Origin: Clostridia bacterium
GTDB lineage: Bacteria > Bacillota > Clostridia > Lachnospirales > Anaerotignaceae
Assembly (NCBI GenBank): GCA_910575055.1
Contig: CAJTDC010000001.1
Coordinates: forward strand, 1 to 64,000
DNA length: 64,000 bases
Direction: 5' to 3'
Shown here one piece after another: positions 1 to 14,548 of the stretch; the first letter of the stretch is position 1; every line of letters begins with the position of its first letter. Under the pieces are notes generated by a model that saw only the letters and a program-made list of their open reading frames with translations, searched no databases and had not been told where the DNA came from. The position numbers were made by a program, and so were the translations under genes.

Positions 1-86
1 AGCTTACCAGCATTTTTCTCATTTTCTTCTGCCCATTTTTTGTAACCCTCTTTTACAATTTCTCTTAATCCTTCCATAGTTGCCAT
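1..86 (-). CDS. Partial small protein of the mobile element, unknown function
   Basis: The N-terminal 28 codons of a leftward gene that runs off the window start. The start ATG at 86 is preceded by GGAG about ten bases upstream. The visible peptide begins MATMEGLREIVKEG and is charged and probably helical, with no recognisable domain. It follows the 214-aa gene in the same orientation and its spacer carries the 18-bp repeat found in the other spacers of this operon, so it belongs to the element's leftward transcription unit. Function unknown. Confidence 0.6.
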   Translation of the reverse strand, partial: MATMEGLREIVKEGYKKWAEENEKNAGK

Positions 87-117
87 ATGTTACTATCTCC
101 TTTTACTCTAAATTTTT

Positions 118-135
118 TGTTACACAGCTTGGACA
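118..135 (-). repeat. Spacer repeat copy 1 of 4
   Basis: On the minus strand this reads TGTCCAAGCTGTGTAACA, close to the consensus TGTCCAAGCGGTGYAACA shared by four spacers of the leftward operon. It lies between the stop codon of the 161-805 gene and the ribosome-binding site of the next gene. The role is unknown; phage start-associated or stoperator sequences are possible analogues. Confidence 0.7.
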
Positions 136-160
136 CTATATATTGTGGTTATTTAACTCA

Positions 161-805
161 TTACTCAAATAACCAATCATTCGTATCTGGTGAGAAAAGA
201 CCACATCCAATTCGATAAAGTGTAATATAATATATCACACCATAACATTGTTTCATTGCCACTAATAATGCTTTTATAACTGTTATTTCTTCAAATATGT
301 TATATGCCTGTTCATTTTCATATTCATGTTCATGTTTCAATATCATTGTATTCAATCTAGCTGTATGAATACGTAACATATCACCTAATTCTGATTGCAA
401 AAATTCCTTCTTGTCAAATTTTAACGTTGCAGGCTGATTTTTTTGCATTTCTTCACATTTCTCTAAAAACTTACCAATATTGTTATGACAATCCATCTGA
501 TTATATCTGTATTCTATTGTGCCAGTCATTTCTTCTAATGTAACAAGTTCATCTTTCCAATCTCTTTTAAAATCACGCTTTTCTATTACTAACGCTTTAT
601 CATCTACACTTTTTATCCATTTTAATGTTTTCAAATCTCTTTCACTTACCGTGTTATCCTCTTGCAACACAATAACATTTGTGTGCCATCTACCTTCTTC
701 TTTATAAAATACTACTTTTATTTTCTCATATTGAAGCACATCTAACTGCTCCTGTACTAATTCCTCTAAACTTTTTTCTAAATTTAATTCTCTTGCAATT
801 TTCAT
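161..805 (-). CDS. Unknown 214-aa element protein
   Basis: A leftward gene with start ATG at 805 preceded by GGAGC about eight bases upstream. The protein is acidic, charged and apparently soluble. It has a Trp/Lys-rich central part and a predicted helical C-terminal half ending in a Cys/Tyr-rich segment. No signal peptide, membrane segment or catalytic motif is seen and I do not recognise the family. It sits in the middle of the leftward operon behind an XRE regulator, as early or accessory genes do in prophages and integrative elements. The coding call rests on length, ribosome-binding site and operon position. Confidence 0.75.
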   Translation of the reverse strand: MKIARELNLEKSLEELVQEQLDVLQYEKIKVVFYKEEGRWHTNVIVLQEDNTVSERDLKTLKWIKSVDDKALVIEKRDFKRDWKDELVTLEEMTGTIEYRYNQMDCHNNIGKFLEKCEEMQKNQPATLKFDKKEFLQSELGDMLRIHTARLNTMILKHEHEYENEQAYNIFEEITVIKALLVAMKQCYGVIYYITLYRIGCGLFSPDTNDWLFE

Positions 806-833
806 ATGACTAGCTCCTTTACTTTTAATTTTG

Positions 834-851
834 TGTTACACCGCTTGTCCA
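834..851 (-). repeat. Spacer repeat copy 2 of 4
   Basis: On the minus strand this reads TGGACAAGCGGTGTAACA, the most divergent copy (GGAC in place of GTCC) of the 18-bp spacer motif. It lies between the 56-aa gene and the 214-aa gene. Confidence 0.65.
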
Positions 852-894
852 ATATGCTATGCTCCATAATAAATACAATGGAGCAATATTCAAT

Positions 895-1065
895 TTAATC
901 CTCGAATTTCATTTCCACCAATCTATAACCAAGTACATCCATTACTCTTGTTGCCATAATAGTCATAGCTTCTTCTTTTTCTTTTTTTGTTAAATCGTCC
1001 CACATACGTGTTTCCCCTGTTTCTCTATAATATATTTTTGATGGTAATGCAGTTCCTTCTACCAT
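895..1065 (-). CDS. Small 56-aa element protein
   Basis: A short leftward gene from ATG 1065 to TAA 895, with an AAAGGGG ribosome-binding site seven bases before the start. The peptide begins MVEGTALPSKIYYRETGE and contains a TRMWDDLTKKEKEEA stretch followed by a helix ending in LGYRLVEMKFED. Small phage and integrative-element proteins of this look (YYRE...W.DLT..E) occur in Firmicutes, but I cannot name a function. Its own ribosome-binding site and the flanking 18-bp repeats support a real gene. Confidence 0.7.
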   Translation of the reverse strand: MVEGTALPSKIYYRETGETRMWDDLTKKEKEEAMTIMATRVMDVLGYRLVEMKFED

Positions 1066-1135
1066 AATAAATCCCCTTTCTTTTTTTTACTATTGTATTC
1101 ATTCTAACCTTTGTACTATACTTCTAAATTATGTT

Positions 1136-1153
1136 TGTTGCACCGCTTGGACA
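1136..1153 (-). repeat. Spacer repeat copy 3 of 4
   Basis: Minus-strand TGTCCAAGCGGTGCAACA, a consensus copy of the 18-bp motif, in the spacer between the 74-aa gene and the 56-aa gene. The preceding minus-strand bases AGTAACAA are shared with copy 4. Confidence 0.75.
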
Positions 1154-1210
1154 TTGTTACTACTTGTGGTTGTTACTATTTATTCTTTTTCTTCTTCGAA
1201 AAATTCCCTC

Positions 1211-1435
1211 TTACACAATCTTGGCGAACATAACACCGTTTAGTGTTCGCCTATCCTCTTTTTTTAGACTTATCTTTATATCATTACTGAGTGTACAATA
1301 TGGTTTGCCATTTTTTCTTCCAAATTTTATAGTACCTATGGTTTTTTTCTCCTCTTTATAAGGTATATCAGTGTCAACTTGTAAAAACTTATTTCCCTTG
1401 TAATCCTCAACGATTTTTATGTCTTTTGCTTTCAT
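1211..1435 (-). CDS. Small 74-aa element protein
   Basis: The frame stays open back to 1483, but the likely start is ATG 1435, preceded by TAGGAGATGTGG; the longer reading would translate through the 18-bp spacer repeat. The product begins MKAKDIKIVEDYKG, is lysine-rich and beta-looking (IKFGRKNGKPYCTL, ISLKKEDRRTL), and ends MFAKIV. No domain is recognised. It is the second gene of the leftward operon, directly behind the XRE regulator gene. Confidence 0.7.
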   Translation of the reverse strand: MKAKDIKIVEDYKGNKFLQVDTDIPYKEEKKTIGTIKFGRKNGKPYCTLSNDIKISLKKEDRRTLNGVMFAKIV

Positions 1436-1464
1436 TTCCACATCTCCTAACCTACTATATTTCG

Positions 1465-1482
1465 TGTTGCACCGTTGGGACA
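1465..1482 (-). repeat. Spacer repeat copy 4 of 4
   Basis: Minus-strand TGTCCCAACGGTGCAACA, directly after the XRE gene stop codon and before the ribosome-binding site of the 74-aa gene. It differs from copy 3 at three positions. Confidence 0.75.
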
Positions 1483-1490
1483 TTGTTACT

Positions 1491-1721
1491 TTATTTTTCT
1501 GCTATAATTTGACATTCCTTTTCTATCAGTTCATCTACTGTACAATCCAATGCTTTTGCAATTAGATAACCTGTTTTTAAAGGTAGAGGTTTTAACCCTT
1601 TTTCAATATAACCTATCATAGCTGCTGAAACATTTGCTTTTTGTCCGAGTTTTTCTTGGCTCATTTTTTTAGCAACTCTTAGCAATCTGATATTCTCACC
1701 AACTTTTTCATTGTTAATCAT
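1491..1721 (-). CDS. XRE-family helix-turn-helix regulator
   Basis: A 76-aa protein that is almost entirely one Cro/CI-type DNA-binding domain: helix 1 around residues 8-18, the MSQEKLGQKANVSAAMIGYIEKG helix-turn-helix around 20-42, and LPLKTGYLIAKALDCTVDELI after it. It is the first gene of the leftward operon and is read from a promoter whose -35/-10 spacer is filled by a perfect palindrome (1826-1843). By analogy with phage Cro-like proteins it probably controls the divergent promoters beside it; the binding site assignment is inference. Confidence 0.88.
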   Translation of the reverse strand: MINNEKVGENIRLLRVAKKMSQEKLGQKANVSAAMIGYIEKGLKPLPLKTGYLIAKALDCTVDELIEKECQIIAEK

Positions 1722-1793
1722 TTTTTCACCACCATTCCCGTTTTTGTTTCTTTTTTCTTTTCTTTGTGATATAATTAAGTTAAATTTCTCAAC

Positions 1794-1822
1794 TTGATTG
1801 ATTTTTCTAACTTGGTTATATT
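1794..1822 (+). promoter_or_regulatory. Rightward promoter for the tandem regulators, with AACTT repeats
   Basis: TTGATT (1794-1799), a 17-base spacer and TATATT (1817-1822) form a plausible sigma-A promoter facing the 1918 gene. Half-sites AAGTT (1777-1781), AACTT (1791-1795) and AACTT (1809-1813) lie over and beside it and may be a regulator operator. It overlaps the leftward promoter at 1820-1848, so the two probably interfere. Confidence 0.5.
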
Positions 1823-1848
1823 ATATTCCGTTTATAGACGGAAGTCAA
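1820..1848 (-). promoter_or_regulatory. Leftward promoter of the element operon
   Basis: On the minus strand TTGACT (1848-1843) and TATAAT (1825-1820) are separated by exactly 17 bases, a near-consensus sigma-A promoter driving the XRE gene and the small genes after it. Confidence 0.75.
1826..1843. promoter_or_regulatory. Palindromic operator inside the leftward promoter
   Basis: TTCCGT, six bases, ACGGAA: a perfect dyad that fills the -35/-10 spacer of the leftward promoter. A further TTCCGT half-site lies at 1857-1862. Its position implies that a bound repressor blocks polymerase. Which of the three nearby regulators binds is unknown. Confidence 0.65.
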
Positions 1849-1917
1849 TCTATTTTTTCCGTTTTTAAAAGAAATGTTATATTGCATAAAATATATAGTG
1901 AATAGGAGTTAATTTTT

Positions 1918-2364
1918 ATGTATAATGTACAAATTATTGAAGAACGTATTATGTCTATTGCAGATAAAATGGGATTATCTAAAAATAAATTGCTTATTAA
2001 TGCACATCTTGGTAAAAGCTTTTTTGATAATATGAAAAAAGGACAAGTTCCTTCCGTTGAAAAACTGCATACTATGGCAGATTATCTTGATGTATCCATT
2101 GATTATCTTGTAGGTCGTACTAATGAACAAAACAATACTTGTATCAACGATAGCAGTGTTATACAAGGTAATGGTTCTGTTGCTGTTACTGGTTCTAGTT
2201 CAATTTCTGGTTCTATTTCTACATCTGTATCTGCTAATGAAAGTAAGCAGTTATCAAAAGAAGAAACAGAAATACTAAATATATATCGTTCTTTAGAGGC
2301 TCGTGACAGAACAAAATTTATGAACTTTGTTTTTGAAATGCAAGATGATGCTGCCAAAGCATAA
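1918..2364 (+). CDS. XRE-like regulator, first of a tandem pair
   Basis: A 148-aa protein with an N-terminal helix-turn-helix domain (about residues 1-65, including NKLLINAHLGKSFFDNMKKG and LHTMADYLDVSIDYLVGRT). A Ser/Gly/Val-rich linker (about 80-110) follows, then a C-terminal helical segment EETEILNIYRSLEARDRTKF. The start ATG has TAGGAG upstream. The next gene is a diverged copy with the same three-part layout. As a divergently transcribed regulator beside an integrase it is a good candidate for the element's repressor. Confidence 0.85.
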   Translation: MYNVQIIEERIMSIADKMGLSKNKLLINAHLGKSFFDNMKKGQVPSVEKLHTMADYLDVSIDYLVGRTNEQNNTCINDSSVIQGNGSVAVTGSSSISGSISTSVSANESKQLSKEETEILNIYRSLEARDRTKFMNFVFEMQDDAAKA

Positions 2365-2419
2365 AATAATAAAAAGGAGGAATTTTTCTATATTAAAATA
2401 GAATTAAGGAGTGAATGTA

Positions 2420-2860
2420 TTGTACAAATCTACCAATATAGCTAAAATAATCAAAAAAACAGCAAAAGCTAAAAACATTCAATTAAAAGATATGTTTATT
2501 GAATTGGAATTAAATAAAGATACACTTTCTAATATGTATAGAGGGTCTATGCTAAAAGGAGATAGTCTTGCTCGTATAGCGGACTACCTCGACTGTTCTG
2601 TGGACTATTTACTAGGACGTACAGACGAACGAACGGGAACTTATCATGCAAATAATGTTAGCAGTAGTTTCGTTCAAAACGATGGTGCCGTTACTCTTGG
2701 CTCTGTTTCTGTTTCTTCTGCTTTTAATAGCAATTCTAATGATATAGCATCATCAAAAGAAGAAACCGAAATATTAGACATATATCGTTCTTTAAATATT
2801 AGGAATAAAACAAAATTTTTAAATCTTATTTTAGATATGGAAAAAGAAGAAAATAATTAA
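2420..2860 (+). CDS. XRE-like regulator, second of the pair
   Basis: A paralogue of the preceding gene: N-terminal helix-turn-helix (KDMFIELELNKDTLSNMYRG, ADYLDCSVDYLLGRTDE), a Ser/Asn/Val-rich low-complexity linker, and a C-terminal EETEILDIYRSLNIRNKTKFLNLI block that matches its neighbour closely. The frame opens with GTG at 2411, but AAGGAG at 2406-2411 sits at proper spacing only for TTG 2420, which I take as the start. About 55 bases separate it from the first copy, so both are probably in one transcript. Confidence 0.82.
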   Translation: MYKSTNIAKIIKKTAKAKNIQLKDMFIELELNKDTLSNMYRGSMLKGDSLARIADYLDCSVDYLLGRTDERTGTYHANNVSSSFVQNDGAVTLGSVSVSSAFNSNSNDIASSKEETEILDIYRSLNIRNKTKFLNLILDMEKEENN

Positions 2861-2866
2861 AAAGAT

Positions 2867-2894
2867 TTGACATTTACAATATTTATGCTATATT
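2867..2894 (+). promoter_or_regulatory. Promoter ahead of the recombinase leader
   Basis: TTGACA (2867-2872), 16 bases, TATATT (2889-2894), immediately after the second regulator gene. It would start transcription near 2901 and produce the leader that ends at the 2999-3025 terminator. Confidence 0.65.
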
Positions 2895-2900
2895 AGTTAT

Positions 2901-3025
2901 AGGAATTTGAGGACGGAACGGGCAGCCGTCGCCCTTTGTTAGGAGATGTGGGAGTGTCGCCTCACCTTATTTCTATAACTATTTTAGGAGATTATTTCAA
3001 CTGTCATTTTTGGCAGTTTTTTTAT
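2901..3025 (+). ncRNA. Candidate leader or small RNA upstream of the recombinase
   Basis: A GC-richer stretch of about 120 bases lies between a good promoter and a good intrinsic terminator, both upstream of the recombinase start. GACGG (2912-2916) can pair with CCGTC (2926-2930), GTCGCC occurs twice (2927-2932, 2956-2961), and GTGGG near 2948 can pair with CTCAC near 2961. It carries no convincing coding frame. It may be an attenuator for the recombinase or a free small RNA; I do not recognise a family. Confidence 0.45.
2999..3025 (+). terminator. Intrinsic terminator before the recombinase gene
   Basis: AACTGTCA, a four-base loop, TGGCAGTT (one G-U pair) and then a T run. It sits about 30 bases upstream of the recombinase start, so recombinase transcription must read through it or begin elsewhere. 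Confidence 0.75.
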
Positions 3026-3052
3026 TATAATAACAGTAGAAAGGGTGATACT

Positions 3053-4501
3053 ATGCAAATAGCTGCGGCTTATATTCGTGTAAGTACTGACGACCAGTTA
3101 GAATTTTCACCAGATGCACAAAAAAGAGCCATAACAGAATATGCCAAAAGAAACAATATGTTACTTGATGAAAAATATATTTTTGTAGATGAAGGAATTT
3201 CGGGCAGAAAGGCAGAAAAACGTCCTGCATTTATGGAAATGATATGCACGGCAAAAGTAAAGCCGAAACCTTTTGACATAATACTAGTACATAAATTTGA
3301 CCGTTTCGCTCGCAATAGAGAGGACAGTGTTGTTTATAAATCATTATTACGTAAAGAATGTGGTATTAAAGTAATCAGTATTACCGAACAACTAGAGGAT
3401 GACAAATTTTCTATTATACTAGAGTCTATGTTAGAAGCAATGGCTGAATATTATTCTCTCAATCTTTCAGATGAAGTAAAAAAAGGTATGTTTGAAAAGG
3501 CACGTCGTGGCGAACATATCGGAAAAGCTCCCTATGGCTATGATATAAAAGATAGGCAATTAGTAGTAAATGAATATGAATTTTCTGTTGTACAAATGAT
3601 GTTTGATATGTTTGTAAACAAAGGCTATTCTTATGCTGCCCTTTCAAAATATCTCAATCAAAACGGAATTTCTACCAAAAGAGGTGGTAAATGGCGTATC
3701 TGTACCATAAAATACATATTAACAAATCATTTATACACCGGCTTAACAAGGTATAATTATATGTCCCCCAACAGATATACTGTTAATCCGGAAAAAGAAT
3801 GGATACTAGCAGAAGGCAGCCATACAGCCGCTATAGATGAGCATACTTTTCAAAAAGCACAACAAAAAGCAATAAAACAAAGTGAATTTGCACTAAAAAA
3901 TACAAAAACAACAAATATAAGAACATGGAGCCAACATTTAATATGTTGTGCTGAATGTGGCAATCGTTTGGTATTACATTCTAGCGATAACGGGAAATAT
4001 TTTGCTTATGAATGTATTTCTCATAGTGAAGGAAGGTGCACTCAAAATCGTTCTTGGTCTAATAGAAAATTAGAAAAATTGATACTAGAAACAATGAAAT
4101 ATGATATGCAAAATCCACATCAAATGCAAATTGAAACAAAAACAGCATTGCCATCAAATGAAATTTCTATCATAAAACATAGCATTGACAAAATACAACA
4201 AAAAAAAGAGTTAATCAAAAAAGCCTATTTAGCTGAAATAGACACACTAGAAGAATACAAAGCAAACAAAATTGAATTACAAAAAGAAGAGAAAGAACTA
4301 TTAAAAAAACTTTCTTTATTAGAAATACAACAACAATCTCCTCACGATATACTAAATCCCAAAAGGTTACAGATGTTTTATAATACACTTATATCAAATA
4401 CGGTATCTATTGCAGAAAAACACAATACAGCTACAGAATTTATACAAAAGGTTTTGCTTGATTTGCAAAATAGAACAATACAAATTATTTATTGTATTTA
4501 A
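3053..4501 (+). CDS. Large serine recombinase (site-specific integrase)
   Basis: A 482-aa protein. The N-terminal resolvase domain has AAYIRVSTDDQ, with Ser11 as the expected nucleophile, and the Arg-rich KFDRFARNRED motif. A recombinase domain follows (about 165-270, GKAPYGYDIKD onward), then a zinc ribbon (CCAEC near 300, ECISHSEGRC near 325) and a Lys/Glu-rich coiled coil near 370-430. The upstream open frame to 2936 is ignored because ATG 3053 has a GGGTGAT site and gives the usual N-terminus. Family knowledge: such enzymes integrate and excise phages and integrative elements at att sites next to their own gene. Its 3-prime end abuts a broken lipoprotein gene, as expected. Confidence 0.93.
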   Translation: MQIAAAYIRVSTDDQLEFSPDAQKRAITEYAKRNNMLLDEKYIFVDEGISGRKAEKRPAFMEMICTAKVKPKPFDIILVHKFDRFARNREDSVVYKSLLRKECGIKVISITEQLEDDKFSIILESMLEAMAEYYSLNLSDEVKKGMFEKARRGEHIGKAPYGYDIKDRQLVVNEYEFSVVQMMFDMFVNKGYSYAALSKYLNQNGISTKRGGKWRICTIKYILTNHLYTGLTRYNYMSPNRYTVNPEKEWILAEGSHTAAIDEHTFQKAQQKAIKQSEFALKNTKTTNIRTWSQHLICCAECGNRLVLHSSDNGKYFAYECISHSEGRCTQNRSWSNRKLEKLILETMKYDMQNPHQMQIETKTALPSNEISIIKHSIDKIQQKKELIKKAYLAEIDTLEEYKANKIELQKEEKELLKKLSLLEIQQQSPHDILNPKRLQMFYNTLISNTVSIAEKHNTATEFIQKVLLDLQNRTIQIIYCI

Positions 4502-4866
4502 TTTAATTTTATGTAATATAGACAGTTCAGTTGAGCAAATGCTAATGGATAATCTTGTTTTCCTTCATTATAGACATAAATGCCTGCTTCTGTACCAAGA
4601 AGGGCGATGTCGGCATTGTCGGAGAGTAGTGCAGTCATAGATTTATCTGCACCCTGACCTACTGCAACAGAAACATCTAAACCTTCCTGCTCAAAAAAAT
4701 CAAGTTCTTGTGCTACATATTGAGGAGCATAAAAAACAGAATGAACAACTTCATTTAATCGAACAGGTACTAATGCAGTTTCTTGTTTTTGGGAACAAGC
4801 TGTAAAAAGTGAAAAAGACAATATACCAGTTAAAAAAAGTGTTATTACAGATTTACTTTTTTTCAT
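4498..4866 (-). pseudogene. Truncated ABC-transporter substrate-binding lipoprotein (NMT1/SsuA-like)
   Basis: The first 122 residues of a solute-binding protein that should be about 330. The signal peptide ends in the lipobox FTAC (Cys24), followed by VPVRLNEVVHSVFYAPQYVAQELDFFEQEGLDV and the GADKSMTALLSDNADIALLG signature of the NMT1/ThiY/SsuA group (thiamine-precursor, nitrate or sulfonate uptake). Homology stops at FAQL; the last codons NCLYYIKLN look non-homologous and end at a stop overlapping the recombinase stop codon. The start ATG 4866 has CAGGAGG. I infer the element integrated here and that the 3-prime half lies beyond the element's other end, outside this window. Confidence 0.8.
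4502..4540. other. Inferred attachment-site junction of the mobile element
   Basis: The sequence between the recombinase stop codon and the point where lipoprotein homology resumes (about 4520-4530, encoding FAQL on the minus strand) should contain one att half-site. The exact crossover cannot be placed without the other element end or an empty site. Confidence 0.5.
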
Positions 4867-4977
4867 ATATAATACCTCCTGAAAATAGCCTGTAAAATAT
4901 TTATTACAATATTATGCTATATAGCGGAATATGGTACATTGTCCTATGATATAAAATGCAATTTGCAATATTATGAA

Positions 4978-5007
4978 AATAAAAAAACTCTCTATTATAA
5001 TAGAGAG
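4978..5007 (-). terminator. Terminator of the retron RNA array
   Basis: On the minus strand CTCTCTATTATAATAGAGAG forms a hairpin with an 8-bp stem and is followed by TTTTTTTATTTT. It lies just past the last array unit in that direction. The plus strand has no T run after the hairpin, so termination is specific for minus-strand transcripts. Confidence 0.85.
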
Positions 5008-5016
5008 GATAAAAAA

Positions 5017-5218
5017 GTTAGGTTTTCTGCTAACAATACTGTTATACTGTTTTAACACTTTAGCACCATACGTACCGCAAACGGGTTTCCCAAAAGGATA
5101 CTGTTACAACCCGTTTGCGGTGCCGTATGGTCGCGAGTGGCGTAAAACATTGTGATGTAATGGTAATTAAATAACAACTTTGAAGCTACTTCAAAGCAAA
5201 CAGACCAGAAAACTTAAC
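5017..5218 (-). ncRNA. Retron-like RNA unit 1 (last transcribed)
   Basis: 202 bp. Ends pair as a1/a2: GTTAAGTTTTCTG at the RNA 5-prime end with CAGAAAACCTAAC at the 3-prime end (12 of 13). Then comes the small hairpin CTTTGAAG/CTTCAAAG (5179-5197) and a long hairpin closed by TAAAACA-type bases pairing TGTTTTA (about 5047-5151). The variable stem has CCATACG at its base and ACGGGTT at its tip, around a loop containing ACAGTATCC. It differs from unit 2 by paired changes in both arms. The order a1, small hairpin, long hairpin, a2 matches msr-msd of retrons. Confidence 0.75.
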
Positions 5219-5253
5219 TCAATAAATTACAAATATAAAATTTTTAAAAAAGA

Positions 5254-5453
5254 TTAGGTTTTCTGCTAACAATACTGTTATACTGTTTTAACACTTTAGC
5301 ACCATACGCACAGCAGACGGGTTTACCAAAAGGATACTGTTACAACCCGTCTGCTGTGCCGTATGGTCGCGAGTGGCGTAAAACATTGTGATGTAATGGT
5401 AATTAAATAACAACTTTGAAGCTACTTCAAAGCAAACAGACCAGAAAACCTAA
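5254..5453 (-). ncRNA. Retron-like RNA unit 2
   Basis: 200 bp, with a1/a2 perfectly paired (TTAGGTTTTCTG with CAGAAAACCTAA). The same conserved small hairpin, base stem and loop are present as in unit 1. The variable stem shares its outer CCATACG and inner ACGGGTT with unit 1; two internal positions differ (C to A, A to G), each matched by the partner change in the other arm. Separated from unit 1 by a 35-base AT-rich linker. Confidence 0.75.
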
Positions 5454-5486
5454 ACTAATAAATTGCAAATATAAAATTTTTAAAAA

Positions 5487-5686
5487 GGCTAGGTTTTCTG
5501 CTAACAAAACAAATATACTGTTCTGACACTTCAGCACATCAGTAAATATATTTAGTTTTCCGAAGGCTACTGTCATAACTGAATATATTTACATCGATGT
5601 GCGATGGCGCAGAACATTGTGGTGTAATAGTGGTTTTAAATCAACTTTGAAGCTACTTCAAAGCAAACAGACCAGAAAACCTAACC
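5487..5686 (-). ncRNA. Retron-like RNA unit 3
   Basis: 200 bp. The variable stem is very AT-rich (TAAATATATTTAGTT against AACTGAATATATTTA) and shares no sequence with the other units. The base stem carries a compensated change: TGTTCTG pairs CAGAACA, where other units have TGTTTTG/A with C/TAAAACA. The loop is CAGTAGCCTTCGG in the RNA sense. The small hairpin CTTTGAAG/CTTCAAAG is intact. Confidence 0.75.
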
Positions 5687-5717
5687 TAACAAATTACAAA
5701 TATAAAATTTTTAAAAA

Positions 5718-5920
5718 GGCTAGGCTTTCTGCTAACAATGCAGATATACTGTTTTAACACTTTAGCCATCCGTACACTAGATATGGTTATTTCGAAGACT
5801 ACTGTAATTAATCATATCTAGTGTCATGGATGAGCGAGTGGCGTAAAACATTGTGGTGTAATGGTAGTTTAAAAACAACTTTGAAGCAACTCCAAAGTAA
5901 ACAGACCAGAAAACCTAACC
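5718..5920 (-). ncRNA. Retron-like RNA unit 4
   Basis: 203 bp. The variable stem contains ACACTAGATATG paired with CATATCTAGTGT and is unrelated to its neighbours. The a2 strand has two substitutions relative to other units, and both convert pairs to G-U, so the 14-bp a1/a2 stem survives. The small hairpin has one mismatch. The loop keeps ACAGTAGTC. Confidence 0.75.
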
Positions 5921-5950
5921 AATAAATTACAAATATAAAATTTTTAAAAA

Positions 5951-6152
5951 GGCTAGGTTTTCTGCTAACAAAACAAATATACTGTTTTGACACTTTAGCC
6001 ACCGCACCGTTACCGGGACTTTTACCGCAGGATACTGTTTAAAGTCTCGGTAACGGTAGCGGTGAGCGAGTGACGCAAAACATTGTGGTGAAATGGTAGT
6101 TTAAAAACAACTTTGAAGCAACTCCAAAGTAAACAGACCAGAAAACCTAACC
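5951..6152 (-). ncRNA. Retron-like RNA unit 5
   Basis: 202 bp. The long hairpin spans 5983-6082: TGTTTTG/CAAAACA, CACT/AGTG, then a variable stem starting CACCGC and ending CTTT around an 18-base loop with ACAGTATCCTGCGG. The 5-prime arm of the RNA carries one extra base after CACCGC, a bulge of 1-2 bases seen at this position in all units. Outer stem and loop are shared with unit 6, the central stem is not. Confidence 0.75.
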
Positions 6153-6187
6153 AATAAATTACAAATATAAAATTTTAAAAACAGATA

Positions 6188-6389
6188 GGCTGAATTTTCT
6201 GCAAACAAAATAAATATACTGTTTTGACACTTTAGCCACCGCACCGGTACTGTAGCTTTTACCGCAGGATACTGTTTAAAGCTACAGTACCGGTAGCGGT
6301 GAGCGAGTAACGCAAAACATTGTGATGAAATGGTAGTTTTTAAACAACTTTGAAGCTACTTCAAAGTAAACAGACCAGAAAACTCAACC
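6188..6389 (-). ncRNA. Retron-like RNA unit 6 (first transcribed)
   Basis: 202 bp, starting only a few bases downstream of the predicted transcription start. Its a1/a2 pair has changed together: GGTTGAGTTTTCTG with CAGAAAATTCAGCC, still fully paired with G-U wobbles, against TTAGG/CCTAG in the others. The variable stem has GTACTGTAG in both arms where unit 5 has TTACCGGGA. Small hairpin CTTTGAAG/CTTCAAAG is intact. Confidence 0.75.
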
Positions 6390-6402
6390 TTTATTGTAAA
6401 AT

Positions 6403-6430
6403 ATTATAACATAGTAATTTGAAATGTCAA
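6403..6430 (-). promoter_or_regulatory. Promoter of the retron RNA array
   Basis: On the minus strand TTGACA (6430-6425), 16 bases, TATAAT (6408-6403): both hexamers are perfect consensus. The predicted start near 6396 lies just before the a1 strand of unit 6, so the array is expected to be transcribed leftward, divergent from the protein operon. Confidence 0.85.
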
Positions 6431-6558
6431 CTTTTTTTACATATTTTAATAATATTTTATAATATTACTTGAAAAATGAAATAAAAATCTGTATAATTGT
6501 CATAGAAATATTTGTAAAATATTCAATATAGTATTTCTGCAATAAATATAATGTCAAT

Positions 6559-6587
6559 TTGTTTCACAGTTATAATGTAAGTATGCT
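6559..6587 (+). promoter_or_regulatory. Possible promoter of the retron protein operon
   Basis: TTGTTT (6559-6564), 17 bases, TATGCT (6582-6587). A TATAAT hexamer also occurs at 6571-6576 but lacks a good -35. Both are weaker than the array promoter, suggesting low protein and high RNA expression; the exact start is uncertain. Confidence 0.3.
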
Positions 6588-6663
6588 AATTATTTTGTTT
6601 GTTTTTGAGAAGTAATATTGTGCAACAAAAAATATTATAGAGAGAAAGAAGGGATTTCTATTA

Positions 6664-9423
6664 ATGGCACGAGAAAAATTTATATTAATGTCTGAATTGA
6701 CAGAAGAACAAAAGCAAAGAATTTCTTATGCTGAAGATCCAATTCGTAAAATAATGCTGTGGGGAAAAGACAGCCAAAAAAATAATTGTTTGCTGATATT
6801 GTATGGTATACAAACATATGAAATAGGAGTGAAACATTCTTCTAATCAATATTATGTAGATGGGCATTTATTACAACCAGTAGTAAAGTATACACATTAT
6901 GCAGTATTTCACGGCGAAAAAGAGCATTTACCTTCTATTCCCAATACATATTATTATATAGAAGATAAGTTACTCTGTTATAAAAGAGGATATAAAACAG
7001 CAAAAGAAAGATGGGATTACAATAGAGAGCAACGCAGATATATAAGACATTTGATTGTTGATGACAAGTATATTGTGAAAGAATTTTACGAATTAAAACA
7101 AAATATAGAATTAGATTATTACAAACAAACAAAATATGAAGATTATGTGACATATTTGAAACAAAACGATATTATATTTGAAGATTTTGAGATAATAGAA
7201 GACCCAAGTACATTATTTGATTTTGAAAAAAATAGTAAATATTATAACATTGTATATGATATGTTTTCAAAACAAAGGCTGTATAGCAGAATTAAAAAAA
7301 TGAAGGAATTTATCAAAAATAGTCCTTCTGTAGAAGAATATGAAAAAGTGTTAAAAGTAGCAAGTGTAGAATTGGCTTGTGGTATATTTGAACAGCTTAC
7401 AATAGACAAAAATCCTATATTGCTTGAAAAGGCAAAAGAAATTGTAAAAAGTAAAGAATTGTGGGCAAAAAAAGAATATCATAATGGATTGATACGTTTT
7501 GCAAAAAATTATATCAGTGTATTTGATGAAAAATTGATACAGCAACAGAAAGAATTTATATACAATACACTGCCTGAAATGGATTTTCATGTAAAGAGAT
7601 TAAAAGTTTATGGTAAAACATTGACAGGTAAGGAATTAGAAGAATATATAGAACAAAATCGTGGTAGTTATAGTGATGTTTATAACAATAATTGGGTTAT
7701 GCAGTATGGTACACAAAAATTGTATGATAAAAACACCTATACAGATGGCAAAAATATCAAAAATATTGCATTTAAAAATACCATACAAATGGCAAAAGCA
7801 TATGATATGGCTGATGCTATAGGAAAAATTACCTATTATATTGATTCACAAAGAACAAAAAATTATCTTAAAAACACCAATGAGGAGGCATATGAATATT
7901 ATCAAAGATACCTCAGAAGAATATGGGATAATTATAAGGCAACAAATGAAAATAAATTTGTAGAAATGACGAGAGAATTTCTTGCAAGTAAGCAATATTA
8001 TGATGAAATTATGTATAGTAGTTCTTTTTTCATTAATAAATATTTTGAAAAAAAAGAAGTATGGTATAGGCATATAGATGATATTATGTATATTGTAAAA
8101 AATTCTACACATAATGATGTACTTTATTTTTGCTATGAAGTATTGAAACAGGCACAAAAACAAAATTTGCTTCCTGAATTTGAACTAAAAGAATTGATAC
8201 AACTTTCGCAAGTACCAAATCAGTCACTTTCAAAATTCTTTGAAGGATTGCTTATGCCAAAATTAAAAGCATTGACAACATTTGATGCGGAAATTATGCT
8301 AACACTGATGAATATGAAATCAGAAGCATTGCAAAAAGTAGCGAAAGAATATTTTGTAAAAACAAATGGTAAATTTAAACCAGAGGATATTGTGAATATG
8401 TTAAGTTTGAATACCATAGAAAAATGGTATACCGTAATCAAAACAAATGTTGATGTATTTAGTGCAGAAGAATATATTACATTTATAAAAGCATTGTCTG
8501 CAAAGGGTGAAACAGAATATCCAGAAAATATTATAGAATTGCTTCAAAATTCTGTAGAAAAATTAAATGTTGCAACTACAGCACAAAAACAGAAATTGAT
8601 GGAACATTTTATTGCTATGATATTAAACAATGAAAAAATGTCTGAATTTATAACAGAAATTGCAGAAAATGTAATATTCCATATGCCTTATGAACAACTT
8701 AAAGAAGCATTACAAAATATAGAATTAAAACATAGTGCATTATCAGAAAGAAATTATAATACGGTTGCATTATTAAAAGCTGTAAAAGAGGATAACTTGC
8801 CTAAAGATACTGTAATAATGTCTATATTAGAAACAAGCTCAGCAAAATTAGTAAAAACACTTACAGAAGTTGCAGATGTTTTAAAAGACACATTAGCAGA
8901 AAGAAATACAACAATGTTGCTGTTTATGGAATGTAATGCAAGTACATTAAATAAAATTGCACAGAATGTGTTTGAGGATATGGAAATAGAAAAAAGGGAA
9001 AAAATGCACATGATATTGTTAGACTCTCCAGTAGAAAGAGCTTATCAGTATGGTTTGCAAAAATTAGAGCAATGGTATGGAGATAAAACACCTCAAAAAT
9101 TTGTTTCTCGTATGCTGGAACACCCTTGTGTTGCTGTAAAATCTTATTTATCAGAAAAAATGGAAAAAGCATTTGAACATTTGGAACAAGTACAACCAGA
9201 TTTATATATTTATTATGTTAAGACATTGCTTTATTTACCAAATAAAGCAACAAAAAGTAAAGATTATGTGTATTCTACTATACCAGCATTTGTAAAATAC
9301 TGCCCACAAAAGAAAAAAGAGATAGAGGATATATTGCTTGATATAGGCAGTACCAATGTCAAAATAAATGCAGAAAAAGCACTTGTAACATTTGCTCAAA
9401 TACAGAAGGAGGTGCAGTGCTGA
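6664..9423 (+). CDS. Large helical-repeat (ARM/HEAT-like) protein of the retron operon
   Basis: A 919-aa soluble protein with no signal peptide or membrane segment. After a mixed N-terminal part (about 1-180) it is almost wholly alpha-helical, with successive amphipathic helices. These include a YYQRYLRRIWDNY segment near residue 420 and repeated helix-turn-helix blocks to the C-terminus, as in armadillo/HEAT solenoids. No nuclease, ATPase or protease motif is visible. Its stop TGA overlaps the ATG of the SWIM-protein gene (TGATG), so translation is coupled. Together with the SWIM protein and reverse transcriptase it resembles, from memory, the ARM-plus-WHSWIM partner set of one retron class (type XIII). 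Biochemical role unknown; effector or scaffold is inference. Confidence 0.75.
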   Translation: MAREKFILMSELTEEQKQRISYAEDPIRKIMLWGKDSQKNNCLLILYGIQTYEIGVKHSSNQYYVDGHLLQPVVKYTHYAVFHGEKEHLPSIPNTYYYIEDKLLCYKRGYKTAKERWDYNREQRRYIRHLIVDDKYIVKEFYELKQNIELDYYKQTKYEDYVTYLKQNDIIFEDFEIIEDPSTLFDFEKNSKYYNIVYDMFSKQRLYSRIKKMKEFIKNSPSVEEYEKVLKVASVELACGIFEQLTIDKNPILLEKAKEIVKSKELWAKKEYHNGLIRFAKNYISVFDEKLIQQQKEFIYNTLPEMDFHVKRLKVYGKTLTGKELEEYIEQNRGSYSDVYNNNWVMQYGTQKLYDKNTYTDGKNIKNIAFKNTIQMAKAYDMADAIGKITYYIDSQRTKNYLKNTNEEAYEYYQRYLRRIWDNYKATNENKFVEMTREFLASKQYYDEIMYSSSFFINKYFEKKEVWYRHIDDIMYIVKNSTHNDVLYFCYEVLKQAQKQNLLPEFELKELIQLSQVPNQSLSKFFEGLLMPKLKALTTFDAEIMLTLMNMKSEALQKVAKEYFVKTNGKFKPEDIVNMLSLNTIEKWYTVIKTNVDVFSAEEYITFIKALSAKGETEYPENIIELLQNSVEKLNVATTAQKQKLMEHFIAMILNNEKMSEFITEIAENVIFHMPYEQLKEALQNIELKHSALSERNYNTVALLKAVKEDNLPKDTVIMSILETSSAKLVKTLTEVADVLKDTLAERNTTMLLFMECNASTLNKIAQNVFEDMEIEKREKMHMILLDSPVERAYQYGLQKLEQWYGDKTPQKFVSRMLEHPCVAVKSYLSEKMEKAFEHLEQVQPDLYIYYVKTLLYLPNKATKSKDYVYSTIPAFVKYCPQKKKEIEDILLDIGSTNVKINAEKALVTFAQIQKEVQC

Positions 9424-11189
9424 TGGAAGTAAATTATAAATATGCAAGCCCTTCTCAGTGTAGACAAGTCAATAATCAGGCTACATTAGGATTTAGTGCA
9501 GATTTGTCAAGAGATGAAAAAGTTTCTTTTTCGGGCAAATTAAAACACCCATTATTATTTAGAGATGCTATGCTTATGTTAAGGGATATTGTTGTTTCAG
9601 ATATGAGCCAAAAACAAAAAGAAAGACCCGAATATTTTGAGTGGTTAGACCAAGAAATTGAAAGACGCATCAAAGCACATGAGCAGTATGCACCTAAAAT
9701 AAGAGAAGAATTAAAACAAAAAATGTCTGTTTATGATGTGGAATTGTCTAAACAAAATGAAGAAATCAAAAAATTATTGAATATACAAAAAAATTTGCAA
9801 AAACAAATTGACGCATATGATGCGTGGAAAGACTATTATAAAATAGAAAGAGATTTCTGGAAATTTATAAAAGATAGAGATTATAGTTTGTGGTTTGTGC
9901 TAGACCCTGTTATTACAGTACATAAAGACCAAGTTTCATTTGAGGCTTTTTCTGTAGATGAGTCTACTTATGGCTGTCTGTCTGTAGCTATGGAAGAATT
10001 TGATTTATTACAAGAACCCAAACTTGGTACAACCAATATTGATTTTTCTGCAAAGCTAGAAAAAGAAATGCAAAGATTTCGTAGTTATACTGATGTAACA
10101 TTGTCTGTCAATCCAGATGGTTTTACAGTAGAAAATGATGTTGTGCCTGAGTATGTAGAAAAGAAAATTGATTTGCCCGAAACGTGGATAAAAGGATTTA
10201 ATCAAGTTTCTTCTGCGGCAGCATTAGATGGCATAGAGTTGGAATTAAGTCCTTCTGATATGTATGACATTTGTGCTTTTTTAAGAAAACATAAAGAGAA
10301 AAAAAGTCCTCGTTATATGAAATGGATACTAGAACCAGAACAAAGAATACAAATAGTATTTGAACCATTTGGAAAAGTAATTACATTAAATGCAATATAT
10401 AAAGGAAAAAAGAAAAGAGAAGAAAAAATATGGGGCAGAAGACGTTGGTTAGTAATGGAAAAACTGCTCCCTATTGCAAAGGCATTTTATGTAAGATTTT
10501 TAGGATTTGGTATGCCTCAATTTATTAGAGCAGATATGGGAACATTACAAATGACAGTTGGCTTTTCTTCTTGGAGTTCTAATGACTGGGTAAAAGGTAC
10601 TGCATTTAATATTATGGCTGGATTTACAGGAAACGGAAATTATAATGAAGTTCATAAACTGTTGAAACAACAACGTTGTTTGTCTATGCAAGAAATATTT
10701 GACCATTTTAAAGATAGTGTAGTACAAGATAAAGTAAAAGCAGGTATTGGTATGCTTTTTAGAAAGGGAGAAGGCTATTTTGATATAGTAAATAACAAAG
10801 TTCGCTTCCGTCATTTGTGCAATGAACCTATACCTCGTCAACTTTATGAAATTACAAGCATAGAAAAACAAGTTGAAAAATACAGCAAAAAGACATTTAA
10901 TAATATGAGAGTAAAATACACCCCTAAAAAAGAATTTATATTCACTACAACATATAATGAAGGCAACTATTATGCCCCTAGTAATACAGAAATTGTCATT
11001 GACCAAGATGCACAAATTGTAAAATTAAATTGTAGTTGTGCTGCATTTAAAAGAGGTGCAAAAAATATATCAGAGCCTTGTGCCCATATCCTTGCACTGT
11101 ATGTTGCTTCTTTTAAATTGTTAAAACTGGAAAATTTGGAATATGACAAAGAATATAAAATTAATGATATTATGGAGATGTTGCTATAA
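9423..11189 (+). CDS. SWIM zinc-finger protein of the retron operon (WHSWIM-like)
   Basis: A 588-aa protein from ATG 9423, which has AAGGAGG nine bases before it; the in-frame GTG at 9417 is too close to that site. Near the C-terminus is a SWIM zinc finger, C537-S-C539 ... C553-A-H555, the CxCx(n)CxH pattern of DNA- or protein-binding domains. A coiled-coil-like segment lies near residues 95-135, and the middle (about 250-500) is mixed alpha/beta and may contain winged-helix folds. It is coupled to its neighbours by one-to-three-base overlaps. The family link to retron WHSWIM partner proteins is from memory; a role in binding the multicopy DNA or the helical-repeat protein is inference. Confidence 0.75.
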   Translation: MEVNYKYASPSQCRQVNNQATLGFSADLSRDEKVSFSGKLKHPLLFRDAMLMLRDIVVSDMSQKQKERPEYFEWLDQEIERRIKAHEQYAPKIREELKQKMSVYDVELSKQNEEIKKLLNIQKNLQKQIDAYDAWKDYYKIERDFWKFIKDRDYSLWFVLDPVITVHKDQVSFEAFSVDESTYGCLSVAMEEFDLLQEPKLGTTNIDFSAKLEKEMQRFRSYTDVTLSVNPDGFTVENDVVPEYVEKKIDLPETWIKGFNQVSSAAALDGIELELSPSDMYDICAFLRKHKEKKSPRYMKWILEPEQRIQIVFEPFGKVITLNAIYKGKKKREEKIWGRRRWLVMEKLLPIAKAFYVRFLGFGMPQFIRADMGTLQMTVGFSSWSSNDWVKGTAFNIMAGFTGNGNYNEVHKLLKQQRCLSMQEIFDHFKDSVVQDKVKAGIGMLFRKGEGYFDIVNNKVRFRHLCNEPIPRQLYEITSIEKQVEKYSKKTFNNMRVKYTPKKEFIFTTTYNEGNYYAPSNTEIVIDQDAQIVKLNCSCAAFKRGAKNISEPCAHILALYVASFKLLKLENLEYDKEYKINDIMEMLL

Positions 11190-12646
11190 TGGATACAAAG
11201 TCTGAATATAGAAAATTAGTAAATGAAATGGGCAAAAAAGAGTTTACATTTTTAAAAATGCAGGAATACGGTTTCTGGCCAAGCCATTTACCAACACCTT
11301 ATGAACGTCAGCAAAATGAAACAGAACAAGATTTCGAGGATAGAAAAAAGCTGCTGGACGAATTTCAAAAGTTGTCTGAGCAAATTGCAGATGCTTATAA
11401 AGAAAAAAGAGAAATAGAAATCAAACTTTCTTCTTTACAAAAGCAATATCAAGATACATGGGATTATGAAAAAATCCGTGCTGTTGTTTCACAGGAAATT
11501 ATGAAAGCTTCTATTGCAAGACGTGCAGAAAGAAAAGCAGCAAGACAAAGACAAAAACAACTGAAAACAGAACAATGGCAAAAAAGAAAAGCAGAAAATA
11601 TATTGTTTATAGGTAGGGGCTACTCCAACCTTTTACATAAAAAAGAAACAGATATACAAAAACTCAAACAAAATGATTTGCCTATATTAGAAACAGATAA
11701 AGATATTGCACAACTTTTGCAAATAGAATATAGTACATTACGTTATTTAGCTTATCATAGAGATGTCGTGACATTTGATAATTATTACCGTTTTGATGTG
11801 CCTAAAAAAAGCGGTGGTATGCGTCATATTGCTGCACCAAAAACACAATTAAAAACAGCACAAAGACAGATATTGGAAAAAATATTAGAAAAAGCAGAAA
11901 TTTCTGATGTAGCACATGGTTTTATAAAATCAAAATCAGTATTAACAGGTGCAAAAGCACATCAGACAAGCCCTGATTTATTGATTAATATTGATTTGGA
12001 AAACTTTTTCCCAACCATTACATTTGAAAGAGTAAGAGGATTGTTTCAATATTTGGGTTATTCTGGTTATATTTCTTCTATTCTTGCTATGATTTGTACT
12101 TATTGCGAAAGAATGGCAGTGGAAATAAAAGGCGAAACAAAATATATCAAAACATCAGAGAGAATATTGCCACAAGGCTCTCCTGCAAGTCCTATGATTA
12201 CCAATATGATATGTAAAAGAATGGATAAACGTATCAATGGATTGTGTCAAAAATTAGGTGTAATTTATACAAGATATGCAGATGATATGAGCTTTAGTTA
12301 TACAGGAGAGTTAGAAAATTTTGCTATAGGCAGTTTTTTAAATAGCATACAAAAAATAATAGAAGCAGAAGGATTTCATATCAATGCACAAAAAACGCAT
12401 ATATTAAGAAAACATAACAGACAATATATTACAGGTATTGTAATCAATAATGCAGAAATTGGTGTTACTCGAAATTGGATAAAAATATTGAGAGCTTCCA
12501 TACATAATGCACAAAAATTAAAAAATACAGGAGAAATTATACCAAAACAGACAAAACAAGAAATTGCAGGTAAAATTGCGTGGTTGAAAAGCGTCAATGA
12601 AACAAGATATCAAAAAATAATACAACAAGGAAAAGAACTATTATAA
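11189..12646 (+). CDS. Retron-type reverse transcriptase with long N-terminal extension
   Basis: 485 aa, ATG overlapping the upstream stop (TAATG), GGAGATG before it. Residues 1-155 are a charged, coiled-coil-like extension containing GFWPSHLPTPYE and ending in an Arg/Lys-rich stretch. The polymerase follows: KKSGGMRHIAAPK (motif 1 region), INIDLENFFPTI with catalytic D269, PQGSPASPMITNMICKRMD (motif 4), YADD at 363-366 with the catalytic aspartates, a thumb-proximal INAQKTH (NAxxH of retron enzymes) and ITG in place of the usual VTG. Typical retron enzymes are about 300-350 aa, so the N-terminal part is extra. I expect it to prime on the array RNAs and make multicopy single-stranded DNA; that is inference. 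Confidence 0.92.
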   Translation: MDTKSEYRKLVNEMGKKEFTFLKMQEYGFWPSHLPTPYERQQNETEQDFEDRKKLLDEFQKLSEQIADAYKEKREIEIKLSSLQKQYQDTWDYEKIRAVVSQEIMKASIARRAERKAARQRQKQLKTEQWQKRKAENILFIGRGYSNLLHKKETDIQKLKQNDLPILETDKDIAQLLQIEYSTLRYLAYHRDVVTFDNYYRFDVPKKSGGMRHIAAPKTQLKTAQRQILEKILEKAEISDVAHGFIKSKSVLTGAKAHQTSPDLLINIDLENFFPTITFERVRGLFQYLGYSGYISSILAMICTYCERMAVEIKGETKYIKTSERILPQGSPASPMITNMICKRMDKRINGLCQKLGVIYTRYADDMSFSYTGELENFAIGSFLNSIQKIIEAEGFHINAQKTHILRKHNRQYITGIVINNAEIGVTRNWIKILRASIHNAQKLKNTGEIIPKQTKQEIAGKIAWLKSVNETRYQKIIQQGKELL

Positions 12647-12664
12647 AATTCATAGTAGTAAATA

Positions 12665-12711
12665 AAAAGAAGCAATAAAATAATATAGCATATGGAAAGA
12701 CTTCTTTTTTG
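12665..12711 (+). terminator. Possible terminator of the retron protein operon
   Basis: AAAAAGAAG (12665-12673) pairs with CTTCTTTTT (12702-12710), followed by T. The loop is long (about 28 bases), so efficiency is doubtful. Confidence 0.4.
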
Positions 12712-12758
12712 CATAATGTAGAATGATATAAATATTTTGTATATTTTTTTACAAATTA

Positions 12759-12787
12759 TTGACAAATAAAATTTGACATTGTATAAT
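12759..12787 (+). promoter_or_regulatory. Promoter of the glycine riboswitch and permease
   Basis: TTGACA (12759-12764), 17 bases, TATAAT (12782-12787): perfect sigma-A consensus about 30 bases before the first aptamer. Confidence 0.85.
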
Positions 12788-12816
12788 ATTGAAAAATAAA
12801 ATATTGCCAAATGAAA

Positions 12817-12996
12817 CAGCAGGAAAATTCCTAAATATATTCAATTTGTATAATAAGGAAGCCGATGAAGCAATTTAAAACAGCCAAATTTTAAAGAAAC
12901 TTTCAGGCAAACCGACCTGCTGTTGATGGAACTCTGGAGAGAATTTTAAAAATAAAATCACCGTAGGAGTAATGCTTTCAGGTTACAATACAGAGG
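12817..12996 (+). ncRNA. Tandem glycine riboswitch
   Basis: Two glycine aptamers in series. The first is closed by CAGCAGG (12817-12823) with CCTGCTG (12916-12922) and contains GCCGATGAAGC and CTTTCAGGCAAA. The second is closed by CTCTG (12932-12936) with CAGAG (12991-12995) and contains CACCGTAGGAGTAATGC and TTTCAGG. These match the family hallmarks. The 3-prime strand of the second closing stem overlaps the 5-prime arm of the following terminator, so ligand binding should prevent termination (an ON switch). Confidence 0.88.
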
Positions 12997-13040
12997 AATA
13001 GAGGCGACGTTTTTTAGCGTGCTTATATTCCTCTTTTTTT
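12992..13040 (+). terminator. Riboswitch expression-platform terminator
   Basis: AGAGGAATA (12992-13000) pairs with TATTCCTCT (13026-13034), followed by seven T. It shares AGAG with the second aptamer's closing stem, making the two structures mutually exclusive. Confidence 0.85.
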
Positions 13041-13147
13041 GTACTTATTTTTGGCAAAAAAATACTATTTTACTATATTTTTACATAGAAAGGAGAGCTT
13101 TTAGTTTTAAAACTGCAATACTATAATAAATTAAAGGAGGGCTTTAT

Positions 13148-14548
13148 ATGTCAAATCATAATAATGAAATGAAAAAAACATTAGGTTTATCTACTGCATT
13201 GGCAACAGTAGTAGGTTCTGTTATTGGCTCTGGAGTATTTTTTAAACCACAGTCTATTTATACTACAACAGCAGGAGCACCAGGACTAGGTATGATGGCT
13301 TGGATAATAGGTGGACTTGCAAGTATCGCAGCAGCATTGACATTTGCTGAAATTGCCATATTAATTCCTAAAACAGGTGGTATGGTTGCCTATTTAGAAG
13401 AAGCATTCGGCAAAAAAATAGGATATTTAACTGGCTGGATGCAGACAGTATTGTTTTATCCTGCTATGATTGCAGCACTTTCTGTTATTTGTGCACAGCA
13501 ATTCGAATTGTTTACAGGAAATCCTGCTTTAACGCCTGCTGTTACAATCGCTATCGTTATTATTATAATTATATTAAATGCACTTGGTTCAGGCGTAGGA
13601 GGAGCAGTACAAGTTATTTCCACTGTTTGTAAACTCATACCTTTGATATTGCTTATGATATTTGGATTTATAAAAGGTTCTGGAGAAAATCCTATATTCA
13701 GCCCTATGGTAGGAGAAGGCGTTAGTGCTGGTAATGCTTTGAGTTCATTACTTTTAGCAGTATTATTTGCATTTGAAGGTTGGACAAATGTAGGAGCGAT
13801 TGCAGGAGAAATGAAAAATCCAGCAAAAGATTTGCCTCTTGCTATTGTTGGTGGTGTTTCTGCAATTATGGCGGTTTATTTTGTAATCAACTTGGCTTAT
13901 CTTTGGGTATTACCAGCCAGTACATTAGCTGCAACACCTACACCAGCAGCAGATGTTGCAACAGCAATATTTGGAGAAGTGGGAGGAAAAATTATAGCAG
14001 TAGGCATTATGATTTCTGTGTTTGGTGCGTGTAATGGATTTGTATTGTCTGGTTCTAGAGTAGCCTATTCTCTTGCAGCAGAAGGTACACTTCCAGCAAG
14101 TCAAGTGTTTTCAAAATTAAATGCAGCAAAATCTCCTATGAATTCTATTATACTAGTAGGTGCAATAGGCTGTATATATTCTTTAACAGGACAATTTAAT
14201 TTACTGACAGACGTAGCAGTATTTTCTTGTTGGATATTTTATACATTGACATTTGTTGCGGTAATGAAATTGAGAAAAGAAGCAAAATGGGCAAATGTAG
14301 AAAGAATATATAAAGTACCTTTGTATCCTATTATTCCAGCAATTGCCATTATAAGCGGTGTATATGTTATATTTAATCAGCTTTTGATTTGTGATAGTGT
14401 TACATTATCAGAAACATTGCAAACATTGTCTTCAGGAAATTTTGTAGAAGCCATTTCTACAGATAATAGACTGCGTTCTATTGTTAGTATTATTATTACA
14501 TTGATAGGCTTACCAGTTTATACAGCAATGGCAAAAAAAGCAAAATAA
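13148..14548 (+). CDS. Amino-acid permease, APC superfamily, glycine-riboswitch controlled
   Basis: A 466-aa integral membrane protein with about twelve hydrophobic segments. The N-terminal TM1 signature VVGSVIGSGVFFKPQ is the APC substrate-binding GSGxF motif, and TGGMVAYLEEAFG and AFEGWTN follow as in the L-amino-acid transporter branch (SteT/YkbA-like). ATG 13148 has AAAGGAGG. Control by a tandem glycine riboswitch suggests glycine or a related small amino acid (Ala, Ser, Thr) as substrate. Because the switch looks like an ON type, glycine excess would raise expression, compatible with export, exchange or use of glycine. Substrate is not proven by sequence. Confidence 0.9.
   Translation: MSNHNNEMKKTLGLSTALATVVGSVIGSGVFFKPQSIYTTTAGAPGLGMMAWIIGGLASIAAALTFAEIAILIPKTGGMVAYLEEAFGKKIGYLTGWMQTVLFYPAMIAALSVICAQQFELFTGNPALTPAVTIAIVIIIIILNALGSGVGGAVQVISTVCKLIPLILLMIFGFIKGSGENPIFSPMVGEGVSAGNALSSLLLAVLFAFEGWTNVGAIAGEMKNPAKDLPLAIVGGVSAIMAVYFVINLAYLWVLPASTLAATPTPAADVATAIFGEVGGKIIAVGIMISVFGACNGFVLSGSRVAYSLAAEGTLPASQVFSKLNAAKSPMNSIILVGAIGCIYSLTGQFNLLTDVAVFSCWIFYTLTFVAVMKLRKEAKWANVERIYKVPLYPIIPAIAIISGVYVIFNQLLICDSVTLSETLQTLSSGNFVEAISTDNRLRSIVSIIITLIGLPVYTAMAKKAK

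Follow-up and report, generated by a model that had tools for sequence, protein, structure and literature searches.

The window analyzed here, the first 64,000 nucleotides of contig CAJTDC010000001.1 from a Clostridia bacterium (Anaerotignaceae; assembly GCA_910575055.1), carries on its minus strand, between positions 5005 and 6395, six tandem msr–msd units of about 219 bp each, repeating with a period of 231–237. The units lie beside an operon encoding a WGR/HEAT-ARM protein, a SWIM protein and a reverse transcriptase (RT), and almost certainly form the non-coding RNA (ncRNA) array of a type XIII retron. Each unit has its own msd stem of ~23–27 bp beneath a fairly conserved apical loop. The explanation that we find best, and favor with some reserve, is that a single RT makes a panel of different multicopy single-stranded DNAs (msDNAs), broadening the recognition of phage triggers.

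The original prediction, made from the letters of the window, had placed six units here, and both their starts and their spacings of 231–237 hold. Tandem Repeats Finder reports 5010–6383 (period 236, 5.9 copies, score 1386), and a covariance model built from 29 units (R1) finds six copies in this genome, all within the array, at 195–211 bits each. On the minus strand, the promoter-proximal unit 6 (6177–6395, 206 bits) consists of a1 (6391–6376), the msr hairpin (6367–6347), the msd hairpin (6319–6220) with its variable core (6302–6237), and a2 (6201–6187). The a1, msr hairpin, variable core and a2 follow in the same order at 6154–6139, 6130–6110, 6065–6000 and 5964–5950 in unit 5 (5940–6158, 210.8 bits); at 5922–5907, 5898–5878, 5833–5767 and 5731–5717 in unit 4 (5707–5926, 194.6 bits); at 5688–5673, 5664–5644, 5600–5536 and 5500–5486 in unit 3 (5476–5692, 197.3 bits); at 5457–5442, 5433–5413, 5368–5301 and 5265–5251 in unit 2 (5241–5461, 207.3 bits); and at 5221–5206, 5197–5177, 5132–5065 and 5029–5015 in the promoter-distal unit 1 (5005–5225, 198.5 bits). 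The complementary ends and the small and long hairpins that had been claimed for each unit are thus present as a1/a2, msr and msd pairing in all six, with folding far from chance (z = −8.4 for unit 1 and −6.0 for unit 4; 0 of 200 shuffles fold equally well). A G follows a1 in 6/6 units and is a candidate for the branching residue.

The a1–msr–msd–a2 anatomy stands, but not on the plus strand; the original prediction had named no strand. The order of a1, small hairpin (msr), long hairpin (msd) and a2 exists on the minus strand only, since the plus strand places the small hairpin 3′ of the long one. Just outside unit 6, on the minus strand, is a sigma-70 promoter (6403–6430) of the form TTGACA-16-TATAAT, matching at 12/12 positions and TG-extended, and the same promoter is conserved at the corresponding place in ASF356, the nearest relative in culture that has an array. 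Just outside unit 1, on the same strand, the sequence contains an intrinsic terminator (4981–5007), CTCTCTATTATAATAGAGAG followed by T7; at this position ASF356 has, by eye, a hairpin of other sequence and then T8, which the terminator scanner did not list. We found no strong minus-strand promoter between the units. Because unit order, promoter and terminator concur and no strong internal promoter is found, the array is most likely expressed as one divergent transcript of ~1.4 kb. The Clostridium clade, which is more distant, fixes the direction of the RNA independently: there the RNA is encoded on the strand of the operon, a short way downstream of the RT. A plus-strand ncRNA, which we also considered, is ruled out by the element order, the promoter and terminator, and the wobble evidence described below. 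The association of the array with the RT operon, as first proposed, holds, with the addition that the two are transcribed divergently, a feature that had been overlooked.

The array ends ~270 bp from the first operon gene, so that ncRNA and RT operon are neighbors, as in other retrons. The operon lies on the plus strand and encodes the WGR/HEAT-ARM protein (6664–9423, 919 aa), the SWIM protein (9417–11189, 590 aa; PADLOC SWIM_XIII, 1.1e-182) and the type XIII RT (11189–12646, 485 aa; PADLOC RT_XIII, 5.5e-157), which bears YADD and ITG/VTG motifs. The YADD and the TG of ITG/VTG are invariant in 14 RT orthologues, and among solved RTs that of retron Ec86 is nearest in sequence. The window copy of the first gene matches neither WGR_XIII nor HEAT-ARM_XIII; among its orthologues, 36/40 match the former and 14/40 the latter. 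The three genes occur together and in the same order in every relative whose contig spans the region. The SWIM_XIII and RT_XIII matches, the WGR_XIII orthologues, the constant gene order and the Ec86-nearest RT together identify the locus, by sequence, as a type XIII retron, and the claim of a retron-type RT operon beside the array was well founded. A search of phages and IMG/VR with the RT returned distant RTs only (≤36% identity) or none.

The RNA and the proteins also travel together. R1 matches 9 of 58 genomes of the family, and full-length RT_XIII and SWIM_XIII are present in exactly these 9 (Fisher p = 9e-11, a value that treats related genomes as independent and is therefore overstated). 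Since the units are short, tandem and hairpin-forming, one could view them as an intergenic palindromic repeat family unrelated to the RT; this is hardly tenable, as they are present only in genomes with a type XIII RT, occur in this genome at this locus only, and have retron anatomy with covariation of a1 and a2. An Rfam search of 4000–13200 returned no retron family; its only matches, to microRNAs and to a glycine riboswitch, fell short of the gathering thresholds. The linkage of RNA and RT is not strict. Even with filters off, four genomes (L004, L012, L015 and L024) have no RNA beside the RT; in L015 it was not found elsewhere either, and in the other three it is present on another contig without a nearby RT, SWIM or ARM gene (L118:8135–8673, L119:7886–8103 and L120:5510–5729). 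The two unlinked units of L004, on L118, each carry a promoter-like site just upstream. Since units sit unlinked to the RT in three genomes, it is conceivable that templates, if they act at all, can act in trans.

Within the units, a constant frame can be distinguished from a variable stem. In the 29 sequences, pairing reaches 97.7% in the a1/a2 helix, where both partners have changed in 7/15 pairs, 100% in the msr hairpin and 95–99% at the base of the msd. In the variable stem, 15/16 pairs show changes on both sides; the figure of 71% pairing obtained for this stem reflects its misregistration by MAFFT, and when the two arms are compared unit by unit there are 673 Watson–Crick pairs, 13 A·C, 2 G·U and 17 other. 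The imperfect pairs differ in kind between the two parts. Read on the minus strand, the a1/a2 and msr helices contain 86 G·U and 1 A·C, in contrast to the A·C excess in the stem. The complement of A·C is G·T, and therefore the frame helices behave as minus-strand RNA and the stem rather as plus-strand DNA. The data are suggestive of a stem that folds better as plus-strand DNA, as expected of an msd reverse transcript, and the change in wobble type from frame to stem may be taken to support reverse transcription of every unit. That several of the units are reverse transcribed we regard as probable. It could instead be that a single unit is active and the rest are decaying duplicates. Small genes are often duplicated in tandem, and the pairs 1–2 and 5–6 resemble later duplicates; nevertheless, all six units retain both closing strands, the msr hairpin and msd pairing, double changes preserve the pairing of the stems, and four units persist with their order unchanged in ASF356. 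We consider decay of all units but one quite improbable.

The stems diverge more than the frames in every multi-unit genome compared, including a metagenome-assembled genome (MAG) labeled Lokiarchaeota. Units 4 and 5 of the window differ by 5.5% in the frame versus 50% in the stem, units 3 and 4 of ASF356 by 4.2% versus 44%, and the unlinked pair on L118 by 8% versus 52%. In single-copy type XIII loci of both clades, by comparison, the element CACTANTGNG is found with at most 1 mismatch in 24/35 cases, versus 1/24 units from multi-copy genomes (Fisher 5e-7 when counted by unit and 0.003 by genome, for a motif picked post hoc and by eye among related sequences). This contrast is a lead: if real, the single-copy stem would be a constrained DNA element, and duplication would free the stems to diverge.

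How many units a locus carries also varies. The window has 6, the most found, ASF356 has 4, on a closed chromosome (PMC9600240), L036 has 3, several genomes have 2, and most type XIII loci have 1. The statement that retrons normally carry one ncRNA thus applies within type XIII as well, and the presence of 2–4 units in relatives, found by a covariance-model search for arrays at other ARM/SWIM/RT loci, means that homologous RT loci do not always lack such repeats. The arrangement, put forward as one not seen described before, is the largest of its kind that we found but not unique. The L036 array (L036:11470–12206) lies downstream of the RT and has three different stems; it comes from the MAG labeled Lokiarchaeota, a possible binning error. 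The repeats in L042 and L046, considered as possible arrays, were by eye read as protein-coding.

The ASF356 units match window units 1, 3, 4 and 6 in order, and the extra copies of the window adjoin units 1 and 6. Orthologous stems are from 98% (unit 3) down to 76% (unit 4) identical. Between window unit 5 and ASF356 unit 4, the 5′ frame differs by 1.2% and the stem by 59%; by sequence, it looks as if units have swapped frames while their stems stayed in place. A near-identical strain is represented by L150, an IMG/VR contig with the same locus (flank differences 1/495 and 6/1123), whose array has three units. One has the stem of unit 1, one has a stem matching unit 5 in a partly unit-4-like frame, and the third has a unit-6 frame with a stem that differs at 11/57 sites, several of them paired, and is nearer to the unit-6 stem of ASF356. 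Collapse during assembly could explain the unit number and the chimeric frame of L150, but not the changed stem.

How such an array might work can be outlined from known retrons. In single-ncRNA defense retrons the msDNA is thought to gate the effector: the RT–msDNA complex silences it, and phage proteins that bind, methylate or degrade the msDNA release it (PMC13158370). The usual layout is a single msr–msd–RT transcript (PMC8867640). Here, the ncRNA gene of a type XIII retron would have become a tandem array, and one minus-strand transcript, from the promoter at unit 6 to the terminator past unit 1, would carry all six units. These would share the frame that the RT needs, namely the a1/a2 helix, the msr hairpin and the base of the msd hairpin. 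The WGR/ARM–SWIM–RT operon, divergent from the array, would supply the RT that converts them to some six msDNAs of ~145 nt each. As in retrons in general, the msDNA–RT complexes would keep the effector proteins inactive. Different stems would then be different baits, such that several phage proteins that bind, modify or degrade DNA could trip the system; by analogy with msDNA gating in known retrons, the range of triggers would be wider with six stems. Recombination between near-identical frames would alter copy number and stem content. On whether the stems are functionally different we are nearly evenly divided, leaning slightly to the negative. More tentative still is a broader version, in which the retron holds a modular and strain-variable repertoire of tandem or unlinked cassettes, with each stem a bait for another phage protein, a trigger range shaped over time by duplication, by diversification of stems and by shuffling of cassettes, and possibly readout by a PCNA-like clamp.

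Two alternatives bear on the stems in particular. In the first and principal one, the array serves dosage: more units give more msDNA, and the stems drift because only their pairing matters. In the second, the stems are a CRISPR-like memory, copied from phage sequences into the array. Several observations weigh against a panel of distinct msDNAs, and some of them speak for dosage. The sequence of the msd is largely free for RT activity and tolerant of change in tested retrons (PMC6868368), so that the diversity of stems could be neutral. The six frames are intact and score similarly with the covariance model. The stems of the window and ASF356 diverge by 2–24%, not clearly more than silent positions (0.16–0.20 at fourfold sites), so that diversifying selection on them need not be invoked. 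The A·C excess in the stems falls to 9 versus 2 G·U when obvious relatives are collapsed (p = 0.065). We identified no processing signal between the units that would yield six substrates from one polycistronic RNA. The window and L150 are both draft assemblies, in which repeats may collapse or recombine. Finally, an exact search of IMG/VR with the stems of units 1, 4, 5 and 6 returned, apart from the L150 array, only five unrelated 18-mer matches, all to the unit 1 stem and with no retron match around them, and a phage search with one stem produced nothing significant. The dosage explanation, for its part, does not readily accommodate the conservation of the single-copy stem (subject to the limits on that motif given above), the 98% identity of the unit 3 stem between species, or the L150 stem that has changed far more than its flanks, and we judge it unlikely, if the most serious of the rivals. 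A CRISPR-like memory would fit the constant frame, the variable insert and the copy number that varies between strains. But the stems evolve by paired changes in a conserved hairpin, not by foreign replacement, and those searched have no meaningful phage match, which makes this second alternative very unlikely. The likeness to CRISPR arrays, which also combine constant repeats with variable parts and differ between strains in unit number and content, is one of layout only: the variable part here is a self-complementary hairpin, there is no acquisition machinery, and PADLOC matched no cas gene among the five neighboring proteins scanned.

Two of the operon proteins were also modeled. The SWIM protein has a C-terminal CxC...CxH zinc finger, the SWIM finger, which is found in 34/40 orthologues. 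In its AlphaFold2 model (pLDDT 76), residues 37–387 match PCNA sliding clamps (Foldseek 6e-7; VIA Z 15.8, rmsd 2.8 over 217 residues), so that the protein is predicted to hold a PCNA-like sliding-clamp domain, a fold seen in the predicted model only and revealed by no sequence search. The predicted clamp domain carries an inserted coiled coil. Such a protein would be a plausible DNA-gripping partner in the msDNA–RT complex. The WGR/HEAT-ARM protein is modeled as a helical repeat (AlphaFold2, pLDDT 88), and the fold matches of this predicted model are generic helical repeats that are uninformative on function; a sequence search of solved structures with the SWIM and ARM proteins gave nothing significant. 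The window ARM protein shares 88% identity with that of ASF356 and ~50–60% with nearer-clade orthologues. With a dN/dS of 0.18, versus 0.04 and 0.06 for its two partners in the operon, it is the fastest-evolving component by a factor of three to four, which would fit a part that faces changing partners. Its nonsynonymous changes are concentrated at residues 1–60 and 541–780.

Around the locus, positions 1–4866 are probably an integrative element, in which a serine recombinase gene (2936–4501) ends at a truncated NMT1/THI5-like gene (4498–4866, minus strand); homology between the window and ASF356 starts at 4529. On the other side, a glycine riboswitch-like match (RF03166, 12807–12997; 85.6 bits, gathering 110) lies between the RT gene and an amino acid permease gene (13148–14548).

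Among known systems, type XIII retrons (PADLOC RT_XIII, SWIM_XIII, WGR_XIII/HEAT-ARM_XIII) are the closest, with the same three proteins in the same order, the same kind of RT, and, in most members, the same ncRNA family in cis; this locus differs in having six ncRNA units with different stems instead of one, and in an array divergent from the operon. The classification behind type XIII is reportedly that of Mestre et al. 2020, and the class names used here come via PADLOC. Eco1/Ec86, Eco2/Ec67 and Eco8 share the a1–msr–msd–a2 anatomy and have an RT related in sequence but, unlike this array, have been described with one ncRNA, one msDNA and other effectors. One ncRNA per system is typical of retrons but not defining, and the six units here depart from it. 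Full-text searches of an open-access library returned no multi-ncRNA retron, though an earlier description may exist.

Retron research has worked with a model of one RT, one ncRNA, one msDNA and one set of triggers, and an array of templates departs from that model. Similar hosts and similar proteins naturally carry from 1 to 6 stems, which offers a direct test of the role of the msd sequence, and ASF356 (PMC9600240) makes such an array experimentally accessible. If the panel exists, these loci would be natural examples of multiplexed single-stranded DNA production, useful for genome editing. And if trigger specificity lies in the stems, retrons would have a recognition repertoire that is able to evolve.
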